This document shows, piece by piece, positions 11,193 through 41,623 of a stretch of 64,000 nucleotides of DNA. The stretch is from Conchocele bisecta (lineage: Eukaryota; Mollusca; Bivalvia; Lucinida; Thyasiridae). The stretch lies in NCBI GenBank assembly GCA_029237695.1, contig CM055279.1, forward strand, positions 682,001 through 746,000, in the 5' to 3' direction. Every line of letters begins with the position of its first letter. The first letter of the stretch is position 1. Below the pieces are notes generated by a model, which made no database searches, had not been told where the DNA came from, and was given only the letters and a program-made list of their open reading frames with translations. Made by a program: the position numbers and the translations under genes.

Positions 11193-13714
11193 CTATATGT
11201 CATTATCTGATTCGGAATCACTGCTATCAAACCCCATACTGTTCAAACAATTTTGAGAACAGCCACAACACTCACTACATGCCATTCTGTTTTTGTAGCA
11301 ACTGCATCTAGCACTGGAAACATTGTGCACTACATGAACATTTAATGAGTTCCAGTACCGCCCTTGGTGCTGGTAGTTTGTCCATCCAATCAACGGACAA
11401 TATGCCGTTCTCCAACTGCCAACCATTGCCATGAGGGCTGGGAATTTCCTCTGTGGCGTTCAGAGCTGATTTCCAAATGAATGCCTGGTAGTTGGCCCGT
11501 GCAGCATGCTTCTGCAGTGCATCCCTACATGGAGGAAGGCGGTTACTGTGAGGGTTTTTGCTGCAGAAGTGCCTATACCGTAATTCATCGATACTGTCTC
11601 CATCGCCACCATACAGAGCACATGCAAATACCTCCACAGCTGACAAGCATTCCTCCGATATAGGAATGTGGTTGCCAAGAGATTGCATGCTTTGGCACAA
11701 GTCAGGTCGTGCTTTCACCAGCTCAAATGCTTTTTTCTTGCCTTTGCCAGCAAATGCGCTATTGCAATCTGAGCCAGTGAAAGCATGAAGACCAGCCAAA
11801 GAACCACCAATGAATGGACCAAGCGACATTGATATTGACATAATATCGACAAATCGAGATCGGTTTTTGGTACCACAATGCACAAGTATCTGGCAGCTAT
11901 GCATTTGTGGCTGGAAGTAGCATGCCAGCACTTGCACATCGGTATCTGGACTGCGAATAATCGCTGTTTGATACCCCACATCAGAGGCATGTTTCACATG
12001 CAACAGCATTCGATAGTCAGCTTCTTCTTAATGTGTGCAGAGTTCAGAGATCTCCTCACGAACAACACAGCTATCAAGGACCTGGTATTTGTGACAGGTC
12101 TCTTTGTTGGTAAGGAATACTGATCTCGTGGAGATAATTGCTGCATATGTCGATTTTACCCATTCTTCATACAAGAAGTCAACTAGAGCAATCTTGTTGG
12201 GACCATAGGAAAGGAACTTTTTCCATTGTTTGGGAACCTGTTGCTGACCAGAAGAGATCTTCACATGCAAAGTACCACCACAAGCCCTTCGCTCCCTTTC
12301 AATATTTTTAATGGATATTGAAGGATACTGGTCAGCAACAATGTCAACCCTGGCACCGTCATTAGTATGTGCAATGGACAATCTCAGAACTGAAGCAGCA
12401 AGCTCTGAAAATGTACTTGGTACATCCAACATACTTTGTAGCAGTGCCATTAGGTCAATAATCCAAACTGCGTCAATGGGCTGTTCATCAAAAGGTGGTA
12501 CATCAGACTGTATCAATTCTGCCAGTTTTGTTTTGGATGTTTTAGCAAAGGTTCCGTCAACCTCAGCCAGTGGCCATGGTATTGGACCGAGACAATGTTG
12601 CAACACATTGCGCAGATCTAGACGTCTCGCTTGGGCAACCACAATCATTCTGCAGAAAAGGTTTCTATCTGCCTTTAACACTTCTGTTTTGGTGCCAATT
12701 CTAACAGATTTTTTGGCTTTGTTGAGACTTGAAAATGTCTTTAATCCAATTTTCTTCAAAGGATCGTAGAATGATGTATCATTACTCACAAGCCTGTTTT
12801 GAACAAATTCGTCGAATGCGAGTTTACCTTTCGTTCCAGCTGCCATAAGGTCCGAGGATACCTCTGCAGATGCAACAAGACCTGCGGCAATGCTATGGAG
12901 ATCTGATGTACTGGTAAATGGGTTGCCCAGACTTTCAACAAAACCAACAACATTTCTGACTTCTTCTTCATCTTTTTTCAACCTTGTTGAACTACTTTCC
13001 TGGTGGTCCTCAGTATGATGTGGCTTTAAGCCTGTCATTGAAAAGCAATGTTCTCTAAGTGAAGCACGCTCATGGGCAGTTATGGTCCACCGGTGCACAG
13101 CCTGGACATTCCTACTGAACCCAATAATACCACCATGGGTCTTTGTGGTTTTGTTCAGGGTCTGTTCGATGGCCTGGTCACGAGGCACTTGAGAAAATGC
13201 CTTGGAGCCTCTTTGGAGTCCGAATTCACCATTCGAAATACTAATATATGCCTCCGGATGTGTGACTGGTAAACTACACATTTGGTGTTCATATACGGGT
13301 AAGTACTTCGCATAGTTCAACCGGTCATATGCAAACATCCATGGGATTGTGTGATGTATGCACTGCATGTGTAGGGCCCAGTTCCCTTCCCTGGTAGATC
13401 GAATGAGACAAAGCAATGTTCCTACCATATGTATATATGAATTCCAGAATATTGCCATTGGTCTAGTCAATGACTGGCAAAACGACTGATATGCAACATG
13501 AAGCTCATCAAAGGATGCCGAGTCCACAAACTGCTTGAAACCATCAGGAGTTGCAGCTGCCCGCAGAGCTGTATGTTCAGAAGTCAGAGCATTGCCTAGC
13601 AATCGATTCTTGTCATGATCTGACAAAGACTGTACAAATGCAAACCATCGGAGTCGCTCCATTGCTTCAAATACAAATACAAGCCCCCTATTGTACTGTC
13701 TTTCACCACTTGCT
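11193..13714 (-). pseudogene. Academ-like transposase with XPG/FEN-type nuclease, broken
   Basis: Read right to left. The first open part (13662-12028, 544 codons) starts MERLRWFAF; the frame stays open upstream to about 13735 (containing RQYNRGLVF), where 'ctag' at 13715 could be a splice acceptor. It contains PFDEQPIDAVWIIDLMALLQ and IKNIERERRACGG, like the N-part of XPG-type nucleases in this protein group. An in-frame TAA at 12028-12030 separates it from the second part (to 11308), which continues in the same frame: RSPDTDVQVLACYF and FTGSDCNSAFAGKGKKKAFE, the latter matching the GSD...GxGxKxA metal/H3TH motif of FEN/XPG nucleases. Near 11310-11320 a frameshift moves the frame to a Cys-rich tail (CSCYKNRMACSECCGCSQNC, ending in an acidic DSSDSESDND at 11193), the likely Cys8 zinc finger. 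The N-terminal half found in relatives is absent, since the right TIR begins only ~340 bp upstream. Confidence 0.7.
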
Positions 13715-29000: not shown

Positions 29001-29165
29001 GAGGTGACTTCCTTGAGTTCTCAATAAAAAACATGGTTTGGGGGCACTTGAGAATCATCTCTATGTCACTCTGGAGAACAACAATTGCCATCTTTCTGTG
29101 TACTGAGGATGTCGGTGCTAATTCATTGCATTTTGTAGTTTATTTTCTATTTTCCATTTTTATAT
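29001..29165. other. MITE flank interrupted by the LTR element
   Basis: 'tattttccatttttatat' at the end continues, after the 12.5-kb insertion, as 'atatcatcaaaaacatgctttgacagc' (41624). The uninterrupted version is seen near 45866 ('tattttccatttttatcata... gctttgacagc'). Confidence 0.6.
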
Positions 29166-30819
29166 TGAAGCGAAATTAGAACAGACTATACTGGTTCTTT
29201 GCTGTTTGCTACTTTTTCTTATACATGTAAGTAAATATTTGTCCAGAGTCAATTAGTCAATCAGCCTGCATCCAACCATTATTTTGGCTACCTGAATCTT
29301 AACTATTTTTAGATGTGGGTCAGGTTAACTTCTAACATGTTGTATATAAAAGTTTGCATCAACCGTTGGTTGCCTAACTTATTTTAAGACAACAACAATT
29401 AATGTAACCGTTTGGACCGTACATGTTGTGTTGCAACATGTTTCATCCAACATCCATCCGTTCATCCAAGTGTTGATGTTGACTAAGTTATTTTTAGACC
29501 GATTTAGCTATTTTGCAACCTGATTCAACATGTTTCTGCATTTCATCCTTCATCCAACCGTTGAACCATTGAAATGTTGAAACATTCCGTTGCATTGCAA
29601 CTTTTCATCAATACACAACCGTTTTCCGTTGAATCGTTGAAATGTTGAACTGTCCTGTTGCGTTGCATCTTTTCATCTATACGCAATCGTTTTTACGTTG
29701 AACTGTTGAAATGTTGATCCGTGCGAACCATACAACCGTTGTGTTGTTGATCTGTTGAGATGTTTTGTTAAAGTTATTTTTAGACAGATTTAGCTTAATG
29801 CAACCATTCAACATGTTGACAACACCTTTGTCCAAAATGGGTACATGTTTAAGCTCTGTTGTAAATTAAGTTTCACTGGTTCTTGAAACAATTATGGTGA
29901 AAACTTATCAAATATAAGGTCATTGTGACTTCATTACACTTGTAATTTACTTGAGAAGTTTACTTTTGGCATAGTTTCATTTTACAACATTGTACAGATT
30001 TCATCCAACCATCCAACCTTTGAGTTCTGTTGTGCAGTGGAGTTGTTATCAACCAACATTCCCAACAATCATCCATGACCCAGTTGAGGCCAGGTCAGTG
30101 ACTCAATTTGGAGTCCTGAATATGAGCAATCTATTTTTATCACTGTTGGATGCTGCAACAGATTCTGTTGAACCCTGCTAGATCATTTTATATTATTATT
30201 TAACCTTTTATATCAGTCATATTATAGGAAACTTGTATTTTTTAGGTTAGTTCTACGTTATTTCTATCATAATTTGCAATAATATCTGTTTTATTTAAGT
30301 TTGTTGTCTGCAACATGCGTTGGTGGTGACTTCCATTTTTATCAACATCATCAACATGTTGAAGGTTGCAGTATAAAAGCAAGACTCGAGCCTGGGAAGG
30401 ATTCTGAATTCTGTATTCTGTGTTCTGGACTAACAGTGTCAACTTCTAGAAATAAATAAGAAATAATAAATAGTTGACTCTGCAAATTTTGGCAAATGAT
30501 ATTTAGTTTAGATATTGAAAATTACATCTATGAAATTGTGTTTTTGGACTCTGTATTTTATACTTAGAAATTATAATAAAAAATAAGTACATGTACTACT
30601 TAGTTTGTGTTTAGTGAAAGAACATCCTAGAAATGTGGTGTAAATCGTGACAAGTTCACTGGTGGCAGCAAACATAAAATAATAACAGATGGAAAACGTG
30701 ACAGTTATTCTTCCTACTACTGATCATCCGTTCGTCCGTCCCTCACAGATCGTTCGTCCGTTCATCTGTCCATCTTCGAGATATCAGTTCAACTTCTTAT
30801 TCTTAACGTTTACGCAACA
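29166..30819 (+). repeat. 5' LTR (1654 bp)
   Basis: Matches the 3' LTR with about one substitution (29208 region, g/a) and about eight small indels. Contains degenerate ~67-bp internal repeats built from 'cgttgaa..gttgaaatgttga' (29560-29745). TATAAAAG at 30372-30379 is the likely promoter, followed by AATAAA at 30451-30456 and 30465-30470. A short CCGTTC/GTCCGTCC tract lies near the 3' end. Confidence 0.95.
30372..30379 (+). promoter_or_regulatory. LTR promoter TATA box
   Basis: TATAAAAG about 72-86 bp before two AATAAA signals, the usual U3-R layout. The same motif is conserved in the 3' LTR near 41174. Confidence 0.6.
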
Positions 30820-30820
30820 C

Positions 30821-30838
30821 TGGTGGCAGCGGTGGGAT
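30821..30838 (+). other. Primer binding site, tRNA-Leu
   Basis: TGGTGGCAGCGGTGGGAT, one base after the LTR, is the 18-nt complement of the 3' end (including CCA) of the animal tRNA-Leu type whose acceptor/T-arm ends ATCCCACCGCTGCCA. Confidence 0.85.
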
Positions 30839-30920
30839 ATTTGTACTTATACACGATTCCGAGGAGACTGCGTTACCATGTGTCCTGGTGAAATGTGTTT
30901 GTGTGATTTTTGTGCTAGTG

Positions 30921-31172
30921 ATGAGTGAATTAAACAAAGAAATAGTTGACCATAAAACCACATTAAATGTGCTGAATTTGGAAATAAAAAATTTAGTTGT
31001 GCATTTGCAGAATCAAACTTCAAATTACGTTATTGTGTTAGAAAAGTTTATTAATTTGTGTGACCAGAGTTTGAGTGAAAAAAATAAGAAAATTGAGGAA
31101 TTAGAATCGGAAAATGCAAAATTAAAAGTTGAGTTATTTAGTAATGAAGATGGTGTTTATAAATTAGAATAA
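30921..31172 (+). CDS. Leader ORF, 83-aa coiled-coil protein
   Basis: Lies between the primer site and gag. The start at 30921 (MSELNKEIVD) was preferred over an in-frame ATG 33 bp upstream because that adds only a short hydrophobic Cys/Val stretch. Heptad-like Leu/Ile spacing (LNVLNLEIKNLVVHL, then KKIEELESENAKLKVEL) predicts a coiled coil across most of its length. It is 17 bp upstream of the gag ATG in a different frame. Function unknown; it could be a detached gag N-terminus or an independent small ORF. Confidence 0.5.
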   Translation: MSELNKEIVDHKTTLNVLNLEIKNLVVHLQNQTSNYVIVLEKFINLCDQSLSEKNKKIEELESENAKLKVELFSNEDGVYKLE

Positions 31173-31189
31173 TCTGTTACATTTAAATA

Positions 31190-32625
31190 ATGGGTCCAAA
31201 GAAAAATCTTGATAAAGTGGTGGATAAGGATGATGGTGTCGACACGGAGGGACAGGTCGAGGAAATAAGTAGTCTACAAGATCGTCTTGAAAATTCACGA
31301 CGTGAAAATGAAGGTTTGAGAAATGCAGTTAATTCTATTGAAAGTGAAAATCAGCGACTCGAGGTGGTAGTTCGGGACGTTCGTAAGGATGCTAATTCAG
31401 AGTGTGAGGGTATGAAAGCAAGGTTGCAGAGTATGTCTTGTGACATGCAAACCCAAAGGGAGGATCTGACGCGTGAAATGCAAAAAGAAAGAGAAGAAGC
31501 TCTCTCTCAGATTTCTCAAATGCGTCGCGAGATACAGGATACAAGAGCAGCGATGGAAGATGAACGGAGGGATCGTCAGCGCAGTTATCACGTACCCGAT
31601 CCATGGGCAGACTTTGCTGCGAGAAGTCACCAAAATGGTAATCAGCCGCGTATCGGTTCACCAATGATGGATGTTGGGCAGCATTCACCAGCGCATCAAA
31701 CACAGTCATTACCCCCACAGCAAAGGCAGCGATCACCGGTTTACCGGGTGGATCGTGATCTACCACCTGCACGTCAACGACAAAATGTGGCTGGCAGATA
31801 TGAAGTTCCGTTACCACGTACCATGCTGTTTGATGGAAGGGGATCCTACGAGTCGTTTATTCGGCCATTTGACAACATGGCTGATATGTGTGGTTGGGAC
31901 AACCAGGGAAAAATCGTTTCGGCTGATTGGCAGTCTTCGCGGTGAAGCAGCTGATTTTGTGTTTAATCAGCTGACCCCCGAAACCCAAGCAAGTTATGAT
32001 GACCTCCAAATGGCCCTGGCATCCAGATTTAGGGAACGGCGGTCTGCAACATCATTCCTGGCCGAGTTAGAGAACAGAAAGTTACGACCGCAGGAAAAGT
32101 TGATCGAGTATGCATCCGACGTCAAGCGCCTGGTACGTAAAAGCTACCCAACCGCAGATGATATGACTTTTAACACAATTGCACTGCGATACTTCCTGAA
32201 AGGGCTGGGAAATCAACAAATGGTGTTAGCTGTTGGAATGAAAAATCCACAAACCATCAATGAGGCGGGTGAAATTCTAGAGACATACAAAAGCCTGTGT
32301 GAAGAGTCACAAGGAAAGTCTGCCGCAGGACCTAGAATGCGAACACTGAGAAATGCCACGACAGAGGTTTGTCACAGAGTCACAGTTTGCTGAATTCAAA
32401 AGTCAGATGGAATCCAGCATTGATAAGAAGCTAGGAGAAATAACAACATTGGTGAAAAATCTCGGCGACAAAGAGAAGGAAAAGGCAAATCCACCGGAAC
32501 GGCGACCGAGAAATATTGCTAACGTGGAATGTTTCCGCTGTCATGAGATGGGGCACTATGCTAACAACTGCCCAGCTGCAGATGGACATATGCCTGAGCG
32601 TGAAGCCGGAAATCGGGAAAACTAA
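31190..32625 (+). pseudogene. gag: gag, broken by two frameshifts; coiled coil, capsid-like region and CCHC knuckle
   Basis: Starts MGPKKNLDKV. The first ~130 residues are charged with heptad repeats (coiled coil), followed by a Pro/Gln-rich linker and a Ty3-type capsid region (LIGSLRGEAADFVFNQLTPE, ALASRFRERR, ending with LGNQQMVLAVGMKNP). Frame changes occur near 31905 and 32350. The last segment (to 32625) has one zinc knuckle, CFRCHEMGHYANNC (CX2CX4HX4C, about 32530-32571). The stop at 32625 separates gag from pol; whether pol was reached by frameshifting cannot be judged because the junction is damaged. Confidence 0.85.
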
Positions 32626-35600
32626 AACGGACTGAGGCACCCGGCCCTGCTTCAGTCCAATGCAACAATTATGTAAACAGTGCAAATGAAACTATACAAA
32701 AAATTACATGTTTGGAAATTAACAATGGATTTTCTGTTCTCCTTCCTATAACTGTGAGCAGTGTATCTGCAAAATTGGTGCTTGATACTGGGCAGCTGTG
32801 ACCATTTTATCTTCCAATGTTTACAATAAAATTCCATCAAGTCATAGACCTGAACTTATGAAAGTGAGCCCATCACTAAAATTGGAAGTTGCAAATGATG
32901 AACTGTTATCTGTTATGGGGTACATAAATTTGGAGTTCAAGGTCCAGAAAGATTCATTCACCTGGCAGTGTTTTGTTGCTCCAATCAGAGAAGATGGCTT
33001 GCTGGGATTAGACTTTCTACAAGCCAATAGCTATGTACTGAGTGCTGGAAATGGATTAAGGCTGAATCGCAAGAAATATAGTACAATTGTGCAGAAAGTG
33101 CCTTTTCGTGTCATTCGAGTGTCATGTCATCAAACAGTAACAGTTCCCGCCTGTAGTGAGATGCTGATACCTGGGAAATGTGACAGCAAATGCGTAGATT
33201 TTAAACAAGGTTTGGTAGCACCATTGGAGACAGAGTCTAATGAAGGTTTTATAGTGGGGCACACACTGGTAAATCCAAATCGAAGAGACATTAATATTCC
33301 AGTAAGAATAATGAACCCAACAAATGATGACATTTCAATTCCGGCAGGAAAAACACTGGGAATAATGAATGATGTCACTGATCTATCAATTTTATCAGGC
33401 GAAACTGATACAGACAGTCCAGTGCAACCTGTGCAACAGAAAAATGGGGACAAATTACCTGAACATCTTAGTGAATTATATCACGGGTCCAGTAAAGGGT
33501 TGTCAGTTGAAGAAAAACAAAAGTTAAAAGAATTATTAATAAAACATTCTGAGGTGTTTGCAAAATCTCCAACTGATTTAGGCCGAACATCAGTGCTTAA
33601 ACATACAATTGATACGGGAAATTGTGCACCAGTGAAACAACGTCCCCGCAGGCCACCTTTAGCATTTTACAATGAAGAAGAGGAAATAATTAAGAACCAG
33701 TTGGCAACAGGGGTCATACGAGAAAGTACGTCTCCGTGGGGGTCGCCGCTAGTGTATGTCCGAAAACGTGACGGCACAACTAGACCGTGTGTGGACTACA
33801 GGAAGTTGAATGAATTGTCAAAATCTGACGCATTTATTTCCATTACCGAACATGGGCGATTGTTTGGACTCGCTCCGTGGTGCTGGTTTATTTTCCTGTC
33901 TCGACCTACAGCAGGGGTATTGGCAGATCGAAATGTCAGAGGCGGACAAGCCGAAAACAGCTTTTGTATGCAGAAAAGGACTGTACGAGTACAACACTAT
34001 GCCGTTTGGACTTTCCGGAGCCGCGGCTACCTTTCAGCGTTGTATGGAGTTAGTGATGCGTGGATTACAGTGGTCGATTGTTATCATTTACCTCGATGAC
34101 TTGATAATTCATGGCAAGACATTTATTGAACACCTACAACATTTGGACCAAGTTTTGGGAAGGCTGAAAAGTGCAGGATTAAAGCTGAAACCAAGTAAAT
34201 GTAAATTACTTCAAAAACAAGTGACCTTTTTGGGACATGTGGTTACAGAAGATGGAGTAAAACCTGATTTACGGAAGATCGAGGTCATTAAAGAATGGCC
34301 AGTACCTCAGTGTGTTCGTGATATACGTTCGTTCGTCGGTTTTTGTTCGTATTATCGAAGATTCATTCAAAACTTTTCAAAGCGGGCACATCCGATGAAC
34401 CGGTTGTTAGAGGCCGGACAACCGTTTCAATGGACAGAACAGTGTCAGGAGAGTTTTGAAGATTTGAAAGCAGCGTTAACGGGGGACGAAGTGATGTCAT
34501 TCCCACAGGATGAAGGCTTATACATCTTGGACTGTGATGCCAGTGATGTTGCAGTGGGTGGGGTGTTATCACAAATGCAATGGAGTGATAAGGCGCAACA
34601 AATGTTGGAGAGACCTATAGCGTATGCCAGCAAATCACTAACAAAACCACAGCGTAGATATTGTGTGACACGGCGTGAACTTCTAAGTTGTGTAACATTC
34701 ACCCAAATGTTTAAGCAGTATCTGCTGGGCCGAAGTTTCATCCTGCGTACGGATCATAGTTCTCTGCGATGGATAATGAATTTTAAAAATCCTGAGAACC
34801 AGATGGCGCGTTGGCTGGAAATTCTATCACAATTTGACTTCAAGATTGAATTCCGGAAAGGATCCAAGCATGTCAATGCGATATGTTGTCAAGAAGGCCA
34901 TGTGATCCGGAGCATTGTGACTGTTATGATGGGACTGATATTCTAGAAAACCTGCCCTGCAAGGGATGCAGTGCATGTAGAAAGAAGCATGAAGAATGGT
35001 CAATCCTAACTGAAATAGATGATGTAGTTCCTCTCATTTCTAAGCGGATTCGTCCAGAAGTGGCGACTGAGATTCCAGTGGTCCATTTAACACGGATGGT
35101 GATGTTGTTTTTGAGTTACTTTATGAAGAAGACACAATTGTGGTGGAACAGTATTCTCACTATTTGGTTATGGCTAGTGATGGTTATACACGGTGGTGTG
35201 TTTAGAGCTTGGAACTGTTTGTTTACAACCAAGAATCGTTTTCCCAGATCCGGGTGCGAGAACCCTTCGGAGAACTCGTGAAATGGTTTTCAGTGTTTTC
35301 TAACTGTCGTGGAGCACGTAGCAGATTACGACGTCTTCGCGCTAGTGACAATGCGTCCGGGGGCCAGGATACTAGCAATGTCAAATTAAGTGATGCGACG
35401 CTTGAAAAAGACTTTGGCATAGGAACGCATGATGGAGGTGTGGCTCCCGATATGCCGCCCATAACGACCAATGCAGAAACTGACGATGAGGTGACTTACA
35501 CATTTTCTAACTGGGTTGGATCATATACCAGTGGGGAGCTGACTAAATTACAAATGGCTGACCCAGACATTGGCATTATTCTCGGTTCACGGAAACAATC

Positions 35601-37030
35601 AGCTGTAAGACCACCAAGAGATGTCATTGCGGCTGGAAGTCCGGCGTGCCGATGTTTATGGCTACAGTGGGACCAGTTATTTGTTAAAGACGGGGTGCTA
35701 TTTCGCAGGTGCGTTTCAACAGATGAAACAAAAAGTTATGATCAGCTAGTTCTACCGTCTATTCTACACAAAACTATATTACAGGCTTGTCATAATGACA
35801 TAACATCTGCACATTTAGGTGTTAAGAAGACAGTGGCTAGGATTAAATCAAATTTTTATTGGTACAATATCAATCAATCAGTGAAAATATGGATAAAACA
35901 ATGTGCATTTTGTGGTGGAAGAAAACGGCCAGCTAAGAAACCGAAATCTCCCTTACAAGAATATAATGTTGGTTTTCCATTAGACCGAGTGTAACAGACA
36001 TTACAGGACCTTTTCCAATGTCTGACTCAGGAAATAAATACATTCTTGTGGTAATGGATAGTTTTACCAAATTTGTGGAGGCTTTTGCAATTCCTGATCA
36101 AAGGGCAGAAACTGTTGCTAACAAGATAGTGTTTGAGTTCTTTATGAGGTATGGCTAGCTTTTGGATTTGCATTCTGATCAGGGGAAAAACTACATGTCA
36201 GATCTATTTAGGCAAATGTGTTGCTTGTTAGAAATAAACCAAACTCATACGTCAGCGTATCGTCCGATGGCGAACGGAATGTGCGAAAAGTTTAATTCCA
36301 CGTTACTAAACATGGTTACCACATATGTGAATGAAGAACAGACAAATTGGGACATGTATCTACCAATTGTGACGGCAGCATATCGTTCTTCAGTACACGA
36401 GACAACAGGCTACTCACCAAAACCAGCTTATGTTTGAAGAGAAGTTAATCTACCTGTACATTTCCTTCTTGGAATAAGACCACAAGAGGCCAAACCAGAT
36501 TGCACATACACAGACTATGTAGCAAATATGAATGAAAAGATGACCAAAATCTATAAATTGGTTCGCACAAAATTAAAGACAAACTCAGAGCGTCGAGAAA
36601 AGAAATTATGACACCAGAATAGTCATAAACAACTATTCTGTTGGTGACATTGTGTGTGTTATGGACACATCAAGAATAGTAGGTAGAAGTCCAAAGTTGA
36701 GAGCCGCACTGTATAAGGGACCTTTTGTTGTGACACGGAAAATTAGTGATCTGTTGTTTGAAGTCAGAGGTCAACCAAAAACAAGGAATAAAATTATTCA
36801 TCATGATCGGTTTAAAACGGTGTAGTTATGAAGAAATTCCACAATGGGTGTTATCAGTGCAACAACAACTAAAGAAAGATACGTCAAAAGTGGGTAATGC
36901 ATCTGCTAAAAACAAAAAAAATCAACACAAAAGTAAGCCAACAGGAAATCTGCAAAAACAAGATGTGTTTGTCCCACTGCGTACCAGTACCAGGCCTCGC
37001 AAAGAGCCAGATAGGTTACAGATGTATTAA
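32626..37030 (+). pseudogene. pol: pol: protease, reverse transcriptase, RNase H, integrase; multiple frameshifts
   Basis: Protease: LVLDTG at about 32775-32792, with a one-base loss in the G run directly after the active-site DTG. RT: RPRRPPLAFYNEEEEI leads into the fingers region (RPCVDYRKLNEL), a frame change near 33815, then LDLQQGYWQIEM, PFGLSGAAATFQR and the catalytic YLDD at 34089-34100. RNase H: DCDASD (34530-34547) and RTDHSSLRWI. A one-base loss in a G run at about 34881 separates RNase H from the tether. Integrase: HHCC finger (about 35790-35925, ending CAFCGG), core Asp at 36057, Asp at 36177 and Glu at 36285 in one frame, spacing DX35E, with an in-frame TAG at 36156. The C-terminal GPF module (YKGPFVVTRKISDLLFEV, about 36714) and a basic tail end at 37030. 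Ty3/gypsy order. Further frame changes occur near 35215-35280, 35990, 36437 and 36825. Confidence 0.92.
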
Positions 37031-37285
37031 GCATTTTAGTTGTCAACGCTGTTGAAGTGGTGATACAAAATACTTTCATCCGAAGTTTCAAATAACAGTT
37101 GGTTGATCAGTTGATTAGATTAATTCCTTCATCCAAAATGATTGCAAGACTTGCTGGCCCTGTTATCATGGAGATAAATTAGTCTGTGACATTTCTGTTC
37201 TTTCTAGGTGGACTAATTAATGCTATGTACAGTTACAACCGTTATAACATGACTGGGTCTATAGCATCTGTTTTATTTACGCCTC

Positions 37286-38011
37286 ATGCCTCAAGAAGCA
37301 AAGTTCAATTGTTTAAATTGTACGAAATCTTATGCCAGTAAACAAAGTCTGAAAAGACACATTGATCAAAAGCATAAGTGTTCCAGTGACACCATGGATA
37401 TACAGGGACAATCAACAAATACAGCTACATGTGCTTCAAAAACACAGGAGGAAAATACGGCTGATGGATCAACTTATGAAATCAGTGAAAACAACATAAA
37501 TGAATCAACTACCTCATACAGTGAAGAGTCAACCTCCGGGGCGCAAACACTTGGATACCCTTACCCGTCGGGCAACCAGAACACCACATATTTGGACTTG
37601 GAGGATTATGTGAGAAAAACATACTCGCCAATATCGGAGTGCGGTGATGTAGATTTACCATCGTTGCCAGCAGCTAAACCGTCGTTGAATTTGGGAAAGA
37701 GAAAACAGGACGACGAGACGAATGAGTGTTGTTGTAAAGCCATTGATGGAGTAACCACAAAGATGGCCTCCCTGGATAGAAGATTTACCGACTTGGAGAA
37801 GAGTCTGGTGTCAGACTTCCCCACATCAATCATCACCGGTTATATGGGGGACATCCTAAATGGACATCCTAAAGGAACAACACGAGTTTCAGCGAAAGTT
37901 ATTCTGCATCATACAGAAGGAAATACGAGCGACGAAAGAAATATGCTCAAGAAGGCAAGAAGTCCCGGCGGATGTGATGAAGTCAGTCACAGCCTTAAAC
38001 ACAGCTAGTGC
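37286..38011 (+). CDS. Accessory ORF, 240-aa C2H2 zinc-finger protein of the retrotransposon
   Basis: Intact frame starting MPQEAKFNCLNC, 255 bp after pol. Residues about 9-31 form one C2H2 finger (C-X2-C-X12-H-X4-H, ending HIDQKH). The middle is Ser/Thr/Asn/Glu-rich and probably disordered. Residues ~145-180 (GKRKQDDETNECCCKAIDGV, then MASLDRRFTDLEKSL) suggest an NLS-like basic patch, a CCC cluster and a short coiled coil. It sits where env or an antisense/accessory ORF is found in some gypsy elements. Uninterrupted length next to a frameshifted pol is notable. Not recognised as a known family; a captured host-type finger or a DNA/RNA-binding accessory is inference. Confidence 0.65.
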
Positions 38012-39946
38012 TTGAAGTTTTCAAAAAATAAGATTTCAAATTACAAGTGATTCTATGTAATTAAAAGTGATTGGATTATATTTAAATAAAAAGTGAATCT
38101 GGAATTAAAGAGTAATTTAATTTGTAATTTTTAAATAAATAATGTGTCAGTAAAGTGTATGCAATAACGGATTATACCAAAATTCAACATTCTGTTATCG
38201 CAGGGCCGACGTTTTCTACAGATCTCAATTCTCCGTCACTAAGGGCGACGTTTTCTGCAACTCTCAACGACACGGGTAACGACGCCACTCGGGTATTAAC
38301 ATTTTACGTTATCCTATCCACGGGTGATGACGTAATTCAACGACACCACACGGGTAACGACACACGGGTAACACACCGGGGAAACGACGTCACACGGGTA
38401 TTAACATTTTACGTTTTCCTGTCCAAGGATGATGACGCAATTCGACAACGCCACACGTGTATAAACAATTGACGCTTTCCTGCCTACTATTGGTGAAGAC
38501 GTAAGACGGCGATGTAATCAAGAATGTTGACGTTTGTCTATTGGTGGAGATGTTATACAGAGTCATGTAGACGTTCAGTAACGTTGTTTACAAAGTTGTG
38601 ACGATATATATCATTGACATGGATATCTTATATTTTACATTTACTGGTGTTTGTGTATCGGAACTAACAATGGATATGCCAGAGAAAATTTAGGGACATT
38701 TTAAGTTTTAATTCATGTATGTTCTTAATGTATGATCCATGGTACTACTATAAACATATAACAATTATTGTAGCCAGCATATATCTATATTATTGGAATG
38801 TGCTGAGGGACATACCAATAGGATGTAATGCTGGGTATAGTTTTGTTAAAATGTGTTCAAATTAATATGGATGATTTATATTTTATTTCTTTCATTGTTT
38901 AGATGGCATGTGCACCGTATGATTGTATGTCACGGTGTTGCTTATATATTCATTGTACCATGTATCCTGCAAATATGATGACATATTCTGGGTCAAATGT
39001 AACTCTTTCAACCCCAAATAAATTAAATGGATTTCCCCATGTTATTTTGTAATGCATTCTCATCATTACAAAATGGTTTTTGGACAAATCCATTTATAAC
39101 ATAGGGGCGTGGAGGTATGAAAAGGTAGAAATTGCTTGCAAATACCGGTAGTGGAGATCCTGATGAGAACGGCTGGTTATGAGCCGGCTCATCTGCCAAA
39201 GAAAGTGTGATCTTTTAGCTAGCCTATGTTGTGGTCAAACTGACCAGACTACTAGACATTCCGAGACTGTCAGTGAGTTAAGATTTATGTGTCTGACTTC
39301 TATGCTTTGGAATTCCATTCAACTGGACACTGATCATTAATGATGATAATATCTCCATTTGACCTCAAGTGAACTGTAGCATTCTGCTGTAGAGATTTTC
39401 AAAGTCATGTAACCTTTTCTACCCTTACCTGTATTTATTAATGGAATTAACTAGGTCAGGTTAAATTTTGAACTGGTCAGATTTCAAAATTTATGATTTT
39501 TTTAGATTATTCCATTATTTTTATTATTAATTTATAATAAGATCTGGCTGATTATACGAACATATAAAACATTCTTTGCAGAGAGTGTATATACTGATGA
39601 GACGGCTCTTTCTGAGTGGTATCGTTTGTATTTGCACTGTGTGCAGACTGATTTGGTGGTGGAAAAGGTTAGATGTTTGTTTATTTGTGTGGTTTGCATA
39701 TTTCTCTTGTTCCATGGTTTATGACTATTATCACATATATCCTGCTTATAATCGCGTATTCCTAGCAATATAGTAGTTTGTTTTCGTATAATTTCTTTTG
39801 TTTCATATTTATTTATTTGTTTATAATTAGGTTTGAGTCTTGCCAAATTTTCATTTACCAGTAGTTAATTTTCTATAAATGTATATATCTTTTTTTTTTA
39901 TGTCAAGTCCGGAGATGACACGTGTCATCAGGCGATGCCACAATCT
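38012..39946 (+). other. Non-coding 3' region of the retrotransposon
   Basis: About 1.9 kb. 38250-38460 holds three to four degenerate repeats of 'cacgggtaacgacg..acacgggtattaac'. The rest is AT-rich with no supported ORF. Its length is unusual for a simple gypsy element. Confidence 0.7.
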
Positions 39947-39955
39947 GGGAGGCGG
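39947..39955 (+). other. Candidate polypurine tract
   Basis: GGGAGGCGG four bases before the 3' LTR start; short and interrupted by one C, but in the expected position. Confidence 0.5.
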
Positions 39956-39959
39956 TCTG

Positions 39960-41623
39960 TGAAGCGAAATTAGAAAACAGACTATACTGGTTCTTTGCTG
40001 TTTACTACTTTTTCTATACATGTAAGTAAATATTTGTCCAGAGTCAATTAGTCAATCAGCCTGCATCCAACCATTATTTTGGCTACCTGAATCTTAACTA
40101 TTTTTAGATGTGGGTCAGGTTAACTTCTAACATGTTGTATATAAAAGTTTGCATCAACCGTTGGTTGCCTAACTTATTTTAAGACAACAACAATTAATGT
40201 AACCGTTTGGACCGTACATGTTGTGTTGCAACATGTTTCATCCAACATCCATCCGTTCATCCAAGTGTTGATGTTGACTAAGTTATTTTTAGACCGATTT
40301 AGCTATTTTGCAACCTGATTCAACATGTTTCTGCATTTCATCCTTCATCCAACCGTTGAACCATTGAAATGTTGAAACATTCCGTTGCATTGCAACTTTT
40401 CATCAATACACAACCGTTTTCCGTTGAATCGTTGAAATGTTGAACTGTCCTGTTGCGTTGCATCTTTTCATCTATACGCAATCGTTTTTACGTTGAACTG
40501 TTGAAATGTTGATCCGTGCGAACCATACAACCGTTGTGTTGTTGATCTGTTGAGATGTTTTGTTAAAGTTATTTTTAGACAGATTTAGCTTAATGCAAAC
40601 CATTCAACATGTTGACAACACCTTTGTCCAAAATGGGTACATGTTTAAGCTCTGTTGTAAATTAAGTTTCACTGGTTCTTGAAACAATTATGGTGAAAAC
40701 TTATCAAATATAAGGTCATTGTGACTTCATTACACTTGTAATTTATTTCTTGAGAAGTTTACTTTTGGCATAGTTTCATTTTACAACATTGTACAGATTT
40801 CATCCAACCATCCAACCTTTGAGTTCTGTTGTGCAGTGGAGTTGTTATCAACCAACATTCCCAACAATCATCCATGACCCAGTTGAGGCCAGGTCAGTGA
40901 CTCAATTTGGAGTCCTGAATATGAGCAATCTATTTTTATCACTGTTGGATGCTGCAACAGATTCTGTTGAACCCTGCTAGATCATTTTATATTATTATTT
41001 AACCTTTTATATCAGTCATATTATAGGAAACTTGTATTTTTTAGGTTAGTTCTACGTTATTTCTATCATAATTTGCAATAATATCTGTTTTATTTAAGTT
41101 TGTTTTGTCTGCAACATGCGTTGTGGTGACTTCCATTTTTATCAACATCATCTTAACATGTTGAAGGTTGCAGTATAAAAGCAAGACTCGAGCCTGGGAA
41201 GGATTCTGAATTCTGTATTCTGTGTTCTGGACTAACAGTGTCAACTTCTAGAAATAAATAAGAAATAATAAATAGTTGACTCTGCAAATTTTGGCAAATG
41301 ATATTTAGTTTAGATATTGGAAAAATTACATCTATGAAATTGTGTTTTTGGACTCTGTATTTTATACTTAGAAATTATAATAAAAAATAAGTACATGTAC
41401 TACTTAGTTTGTGTTTAGTGAAAGAACATCCTAGAAATGTGGTGTAAATCGTGACAAGTTCACTGGTGGCAGCAAACATAAAATAATAACAGATGGAAAA
41501 CGTGACAGTTATTCTTCCTACTACTGATCATCCGTTCGTCCGTCCCTCACAGATCGTTCGTCCGTTCATCTGTCCATCTTCGAGATATCAGTTCAACTTC
41601 TTATTCTTAACGTTTACGCAACA
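39960..41623 (+). repeat. 3' LTR (1664 bp)
   Basis: Near-identical to 29166-30819. Ends ...cgcaaca followed by the ATAT target duplication. Differences from the 5' LTR are almost all 1-4-base indels in short homopolymers or dinucleotides. Confidence 0.95.

Follow-up and report, generated by a model that had tools for sequence, protein, structure and literature searches.

ORF3, a C2H2 zinc-finger open reading frame downstream of pol in Ty3/gypsy elements of Conchocele bisecta, and its possible role as an accessory regulator

Results

The window, that is, the whole 64,000-nucleotide stretch of DNA that was analysed (G000:C15:682001-746000 in a 1.89-Gb assembly), contains a Ty3/gypsy element on the plus strand at 29165-41622, bounded by long terminal repeats (LTRs) of ~1.65 kb with approximate ends (5′ LTR, 29165-30819; 3′ LTR, 39960-41622). 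The LTRs are 99.1% identical and have TG..CA termini, and ATAT both precedes the first and follows the second. The pair differs by only 2 substitutions and 9 gaps, and the insertion is therefore recent. Between the LTRs, all on the plus strand, are a leader ORF for a coiled-coil-like protein of 83 aa (30921-31172), a gag region (31190-32620) with a Ty3_capsid-like match below cut-off and a CCHC knuckle recognized by eye, and a pol region (32798-36825) comprising a protease region, reverse transcriptase (RT) and RNase H (33810-34943), and an integrase with its H2C2 domain within 35209-35991. The TG..CA LTRs, the short target duplication and the location of RT-RNase H upstream of integrase are those of the Ty3/gypsy group (Metaviridae). 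As assembled, the gag region of this copy is broken into two frames and the pol region into several. A Troyka identity was rejected because the hallmarks given for Troyka are CG..CG termini and a 3-bp target duplication (PMC12440569), not the TG..CA and ATAT of this element. A weak dUTPase-like match (E 0.018, below cut-off) lies between protease and RT at 33125-33352 and, elsewhere in the window, two adjoining minus-strand ORFs of 233 and 544 aa (11308-13662) are without a Pfam match at E ≤ 0.1.

Downstream of pol lies ORF3, an ATG-to-stop frame at 37286-38008 (+) that encodes 240 aa. The original prediction described it as an intact C2H2 ORF in the env position of a Ty3/gypsy element, with one finger, a disordered middle, a CCC cluster and a short coiled coil. 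Much of this anatomy is borne out: the pol domains are located upstream, a single C2H2-like finger occupies residues 7-30 (matched by three generic Pfam C2H2 models at E 4e-4 to 2e-3, below their cut-offs), and it is followed by a variable, low-complexity linker, the motifs SPIS and KRK, an ECCC cluster and a helical stretch. The env position holds for the place after pol but not for the protein, which is not env-like. In the six ORF3 proteins compared, the 19-residue Kyte-Doolittle mean never rises above 1.23 and neither a membrane-spanning stretch nor a hydrophobic signal was found, and an envelope glycoprotein identity was rejected on these grounds.

What does not stand is the intactness of the frame. 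Alignment of the copies reveals that near 37.86 kb the window ORF3 shifts out of the reading frame used by the rest of family A (the family of the window element), so that residues ~194-240, some 47 residues, are an out-of-frame tail. Two of the seven family A places, on C13 and C14, stay open throughout and encode 246 aa that end in another C-terminus, and it is this C-terminus, not that of the window, that is conserved in the other families. ORF3 is thus a real ORF, yet it is not intact in the window copy. The family A copies are near-identical in alignment except for scattered short indels and a few substitutions, and their six LTR pairs together differ by 26 substitutions versus 88 gaps, an excess of indels suggesting that some of the frame breaks may stem from the assembly. 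The same counts could reflect either indel errors of the assembly or an unusual, indel-rich mutation process.

A genome search (20 rows, including those of families B and C) placed ORF3 of families A to C at 12 sites, seven for A (C15, the copy in the window, C13, C2, C14, two on C4, and C10), four for B (C1, C2, C6 and C7) and one for C (C13:6.53M). The A and B ORF3 proteins are ~40% identical, compared with protein-level identities of 75-91% for RT/RNase H pieces and 63-78% for integrase pieces, and in the B copies ORF3 follows pol as it does in A; one of the four B copies has an uninterrupted frame from end to end. A search with RT returned at least 111 rows, 109 of 5877 first-look candidates being scored, and eight elements beyond families A-C were examined, six of them for their post-pol stretch together with two at 54% RT identity. 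All four examined elements of family E (RT 66-68%) carry after pol a longer ORF3 of the 332-aa type with two fingers, open in full in one, with a single stop in another and frame-broken in two, and a family F element (RT 64%) has a broken version at the post-pol place. The E protein itself retrieved 46 rows, which merge to 25 places plus one weak match, and five of the 46 cover residues 1-332 without a stop. No ORF3 was found in the two elements at 54% RT identity within the 1.9 kb expected to hold it. A B-like copy at C7:82.49M (RT 87%) is also without ORF3, but from 1.2 kb past its RT match it continues with sequence that elsewhere lies 3′ of ORF3, and for this reason the copy appears to be internally deleted. 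Judged from the eight elements examined beyond A-C, ORF3 seems to be characteristic of a single branch of the gypsy elements of this genome. The ORF, whose presence in other copies had been proposed as a check, occurs at 12 places for A-C and 25 for E; most copies, the window's included, are frame-broken as assembled, but absence or decay in all of them does not hold, with two of seven A places, one of four B copies and five of 46 E rows fully open. Since the same frame and motifs recur in divergent families at the same place, their occurrence is more than chance. Two family A copies stand in tandem at L020-L023 (C4:21.70-21.72 Mb), apparently with a common LTR, as the leader ORF directly follows the 3′ LTR of the first copy. 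The leader ORF is kept in family B (L044 8263-8503; L047) at ~62% identity over 53 aa and is possibly a second accessory gene.

The ORF3 proteins, of 246-332 aa, have a fixed order of motifs: an N-terminal finger, a variable linker, SP[IV]S, KRK, CCC where present, and C-terminal helices. The finger reads CX2CX12HX4H in A, B and E, within the C2H2 spacing CX2CX12HX3-5H, and would bind zinc; it lacks a second His in family F and is readable in four of the six proteins, P0003 and P0005 being short at the N-terminus. Helix positions -1 to 6 are nearly constant (SKQSLKR in A and B, HLQSLRR in E, SKQKLRR in F). Family B passes two Pfam C2H2 cut-offs (33.4 vs 27 bits), while A and E fall below cut-off. 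Families B and E have in addition a second, degenerate finger, CX2CX12H without the last His. SP[IV]S and KRK are present in all six proteins, of which P0002-P0004 are all B or B-like; CCC is found in A, B and P0005 and is missing from E, and NTA lies close to the C-terminus in all five aligned proteins. Family E is tied to A and B by its place, its motif order and a profile match of the finger region (44 columns, E 7.6e-8) that may in part be general C2H2 likeness, the rest of E being too diverged for proof by sequence only. In the structure prediction that had been suggested as a check, the C-terminal part is helical in both models and AlphaFold reached moderate confidence for no more than the finger and some of the C-terminal helical sequence, and the models as a whole are poor (mean pLDDT 43 and 49). 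A fold search gave no match at E ≤ 0.001, and a sequence search of solved structures returned six C2H2 chains at E 0.6-0.9. Weak leucine-zipper-type matches were obtained for P0005 in the Pfam scan.

Selection was assessed between families A and B by contrasting pS and pN rather than by dN/dS because synonymous sites are saturated. Over 231 codons, pS is 0.805 and pN 0.366 (Fisher p 1e-21 on rounded counts), a contrast to be read with caution as the protein-guided alignment favours similarity; a non-coding frame drifting neutrally would not be expected to produce it. The segments differ, with pN of 0.24 in the finger, 0.56 in the linker, 0.29 in the SP/KRK part and 0.34 in the C-terminus, versus 0.06-0.19 for gag and pol pieces. 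Within E, all six pairs among four copies have pN/pS of 0.20-0.48, with Fisher p ranging from 0.035 to 0.32 and under 0.05 for a single pair; the stop codon that one copy contains was omitted from the comparison. Two B copies, by contrast, differ at 2 synonymous and 9 nonsynonymous positions over 178 codons (pS 0.017, pN 0.022), with no sign of constraint. Constraint, the point of the proposed check for purifying selection, is seen between A and B and within E but not between these two B copies, and ORF3 looks constrained between families while evolving about twice as fast as integrase. These data bear on whether ORF3 could be a passenger, a chance frame or captured host fragment without function. 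The broken frames of the window copy and of most others, and the pair of B copies, are what such a fragment would produce, but it would not be expected to recur across families with saturated synonymous sites or to be constrained within E, and the host homologue that had been proposed as a search target was found neither in genome searches nor in protein look-ups. We regard a passenger as scarcely credible; the evidence speaks strongly against it for the family, though not for the single window copy.

Outside this genome, a look-up with the window ORF protein gave nothing at E ≤ 1, and look-ups with alignments as query gave only two proteins, P0004 and P0005. P0004 (Logan) is 90% identical to the family B protein P0002. 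P0005 is recorded as a protein of a Sedimenticola metagenome-assembled genome, which we suspect to be animal contamination, and its match suggests that the ORF3 family exists beyond this genome. No relative was found in genome contigs with P0005 as query or in viral contigs with A3 as query.

The sequence 5′ of ORF3 makes expression by splicing plausible. Among 213 YAG sites in 30405-37295, the best pyrimidine tract belongs to a candidate acceptor with its AG at 37206-37207 (+), 78 nt upstream of the ATG of ORF3, and an acceptor-like site occurs at the homologous place in family B. In both families it is preceded by an inverted repeat, TTATC-N5-GATAA (37163-37177 (+) in the window; in all three B copies looked at). 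With a simple splice-site score, the leader upstream of gag yielded no strong donor; the first site to exceed the threshold is in gag (~31.41 kb) and the best in pol (~35.71 kb). No strong acceptor was found before ORF3 in E or F. Between ORF3 and the 3′ LTR there are degenerate repeats (38201-38480 (+)) with a 14-bp unit, CACACGGGTAACGA, and an 83-nt unit present twice; family B also has short tandem repeats there (L009 3064-3131; L012 6421-6484), of different sequence.

The A LTR has 12 GTTGAA boxes, counting both strands, versus ~1 in shuffled sequences (maximum 6 of 500), and its U3 holds an array of them at ~29558-29717 and 40353-40512 in the window. Several are in 8-bp phase inside a 68-bp duplication, which in part raises the count. 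By the zinc-finger recognition code, S at position 3 with R at position 6 would favour GT-containing triplets. The B LTRs have one box each and no array, although the finger helix is the same as in A; the array as the ORF3 target is therefore not supported by family B, and the boxes could be taken only as a lead.

Discussion

Based on the order of its motifs, its position, its recurrence across families and the constraint between them, we put forward ORF3 as a lineage-specific nuclear accessory protein that would oligomerise, bind nucleic acid and regulate expression of its own element in the manner of Tas or CERV, with which it was compared by description and not by sequence. Our confidence in this reading is evenly balanced. 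The protein would be made from a spliced RNA and would enter the nucleus by means of KRK, a nuclear-localisation-like motif; the presence of KRK together with the absence of a membrane segment fits best with a nuclear nucleic-acid-binding regulator. A single zinc finger binds weakly, and oligomers formed by the C-terminal helical, probably coiled-coil part would supply several fingers that bind cooperatively. The oligomer may then bind LTR DNA or RNA of the element and so regulate its expression. Against this mechanism stand the lack of a strong leader donor and of strong acceptors in E and F, the low-confidence models, the absence of the A box array from the B LTR, the two B copies without constraint, the frame breaks in most copies as assembled, and the F finger without its second His.

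Three other roles would use the same parts differently. If ORF3 were an export factor like CERV or Rev, nuclear ORF3 would bind unspliced element RNA, the finger contacting RNA and the coiled coil multimerising, and nuclear export of genomic RNA would require it. ORF3 has the KRK, the helical C-terminus, the finger and the acceptor-like site for this, and CERV, a nuclear protein made from a spliced mRNA, combines KRKK and a leucine zipper with what may be a zinc finger (PMC10309623). However, a pattern search of the six proteins did not find a conserved export signal, the pattern being absent from the C-terminal 25 residues of five of them and, over their full length, from P0001 and P0005, and the first exons of CERV are common to gag while ORF3 has its own ATG after pol, insofar as descriptions can be compared. 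We judge this role unlikely, but binding of the LTR as by Tas and export of RNA as by CERV cannot be separated by the present analysis. ORF3 could instead be directed to chromatin, countering silencing or steering integration by tethering complexes to chromosomal sites, for which a C2H2 finger and KRK would serve; neither is specific to such a role, Pfam scans found no known chromatin domain, and we hold this to be somewhat less probable than export. Finally, a nucleocapsid-like or structural helper, packed with Gag and at work within the particle instead of the nucleus, could chaperone nucleic acid with a single finger and a coiled coil, and the leader of the element has another coiled-coil ORF, but the gag region already has a CCHC knuckle and KRK is conserved in ORF3, and we consider this role quite improbable. 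The reading that we prefer is still the nuclear regulator of the element's own expression.

Accessory ORFs are known from LTR retrotransposons, and ORF3 belongs with them, set apart as sense, post-pol and C2H2-based. Unlike ORF3, Tas is encoded downstream of env by an enveloped virus, and to our knowledge it has no C2H2 finger. Few non-Env extra proteins of animal Ty3/gypsy elements, as far as we know, have an assigned role, CERV being one. Tas/Bel1 of foamy viruses is like ORF3 an accessory gene downstream of pol, and it is proposed to bind the promoter of its own element (PMC4929722), as suggested here for ORF3. CERV, from the Caenorhabditis elegans Ty3/gypsy element Cer1, is likewise a non-Env extra protein of a gypsy element, and besides the features given above shares fast divergence with ORF3 (PMC10309623). 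It differs in having 517 aa, first exons shared with gag, a possible C4 finger and a G domain (PMC10309623), whereas ORF3 encodes 246-332 aa after pol with a C2H2 finger. In plants, aORFs are described as either sense and env-like or antisense and encoding TRP28 (PMC11963269). The TRP28 aORF of Retand elements resembles ORF3 in being an additional ORF, predicted to bind DNA and located in a long region between pol and the 3′ LTR that often has tandem repeats, but it is antisense, of plants and of another domain (PMC11963269); a Retand aORF identity was rejected because ORF3 is in sense and not antisense to gag-pol. In the literature searched, to judge from titles and the opening of abstracts, no description was found of a C2H2 ORF downstream of pol in a gypsy element of animals.

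Two cautions follow from ORF3: an ORF that occupies the env position is not necessarily env and, as the window copy illustrates, a long open frame may run to its stop in the wrong frame. A gene for a zinc-finger protein that accompanies a single branch of pol defines a protein family of which several natural variants can be read, and with these one could ask whether self-regulation of the type found in complex retroviruses also exists among LTR retrotransposons. We further offer, as a tentative and on balance improbable extension, that a Ty3/gypsy lineage of animals has retained over a long time a C2H2 regulator of its own, passed on with pol and evolved independently as an equivalent of Tas or CERV, whose finger would read boxes in the LTR or RNA of the element itself. 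If true, this would be a self-contained regulatory circuit inside a retrotransposon.
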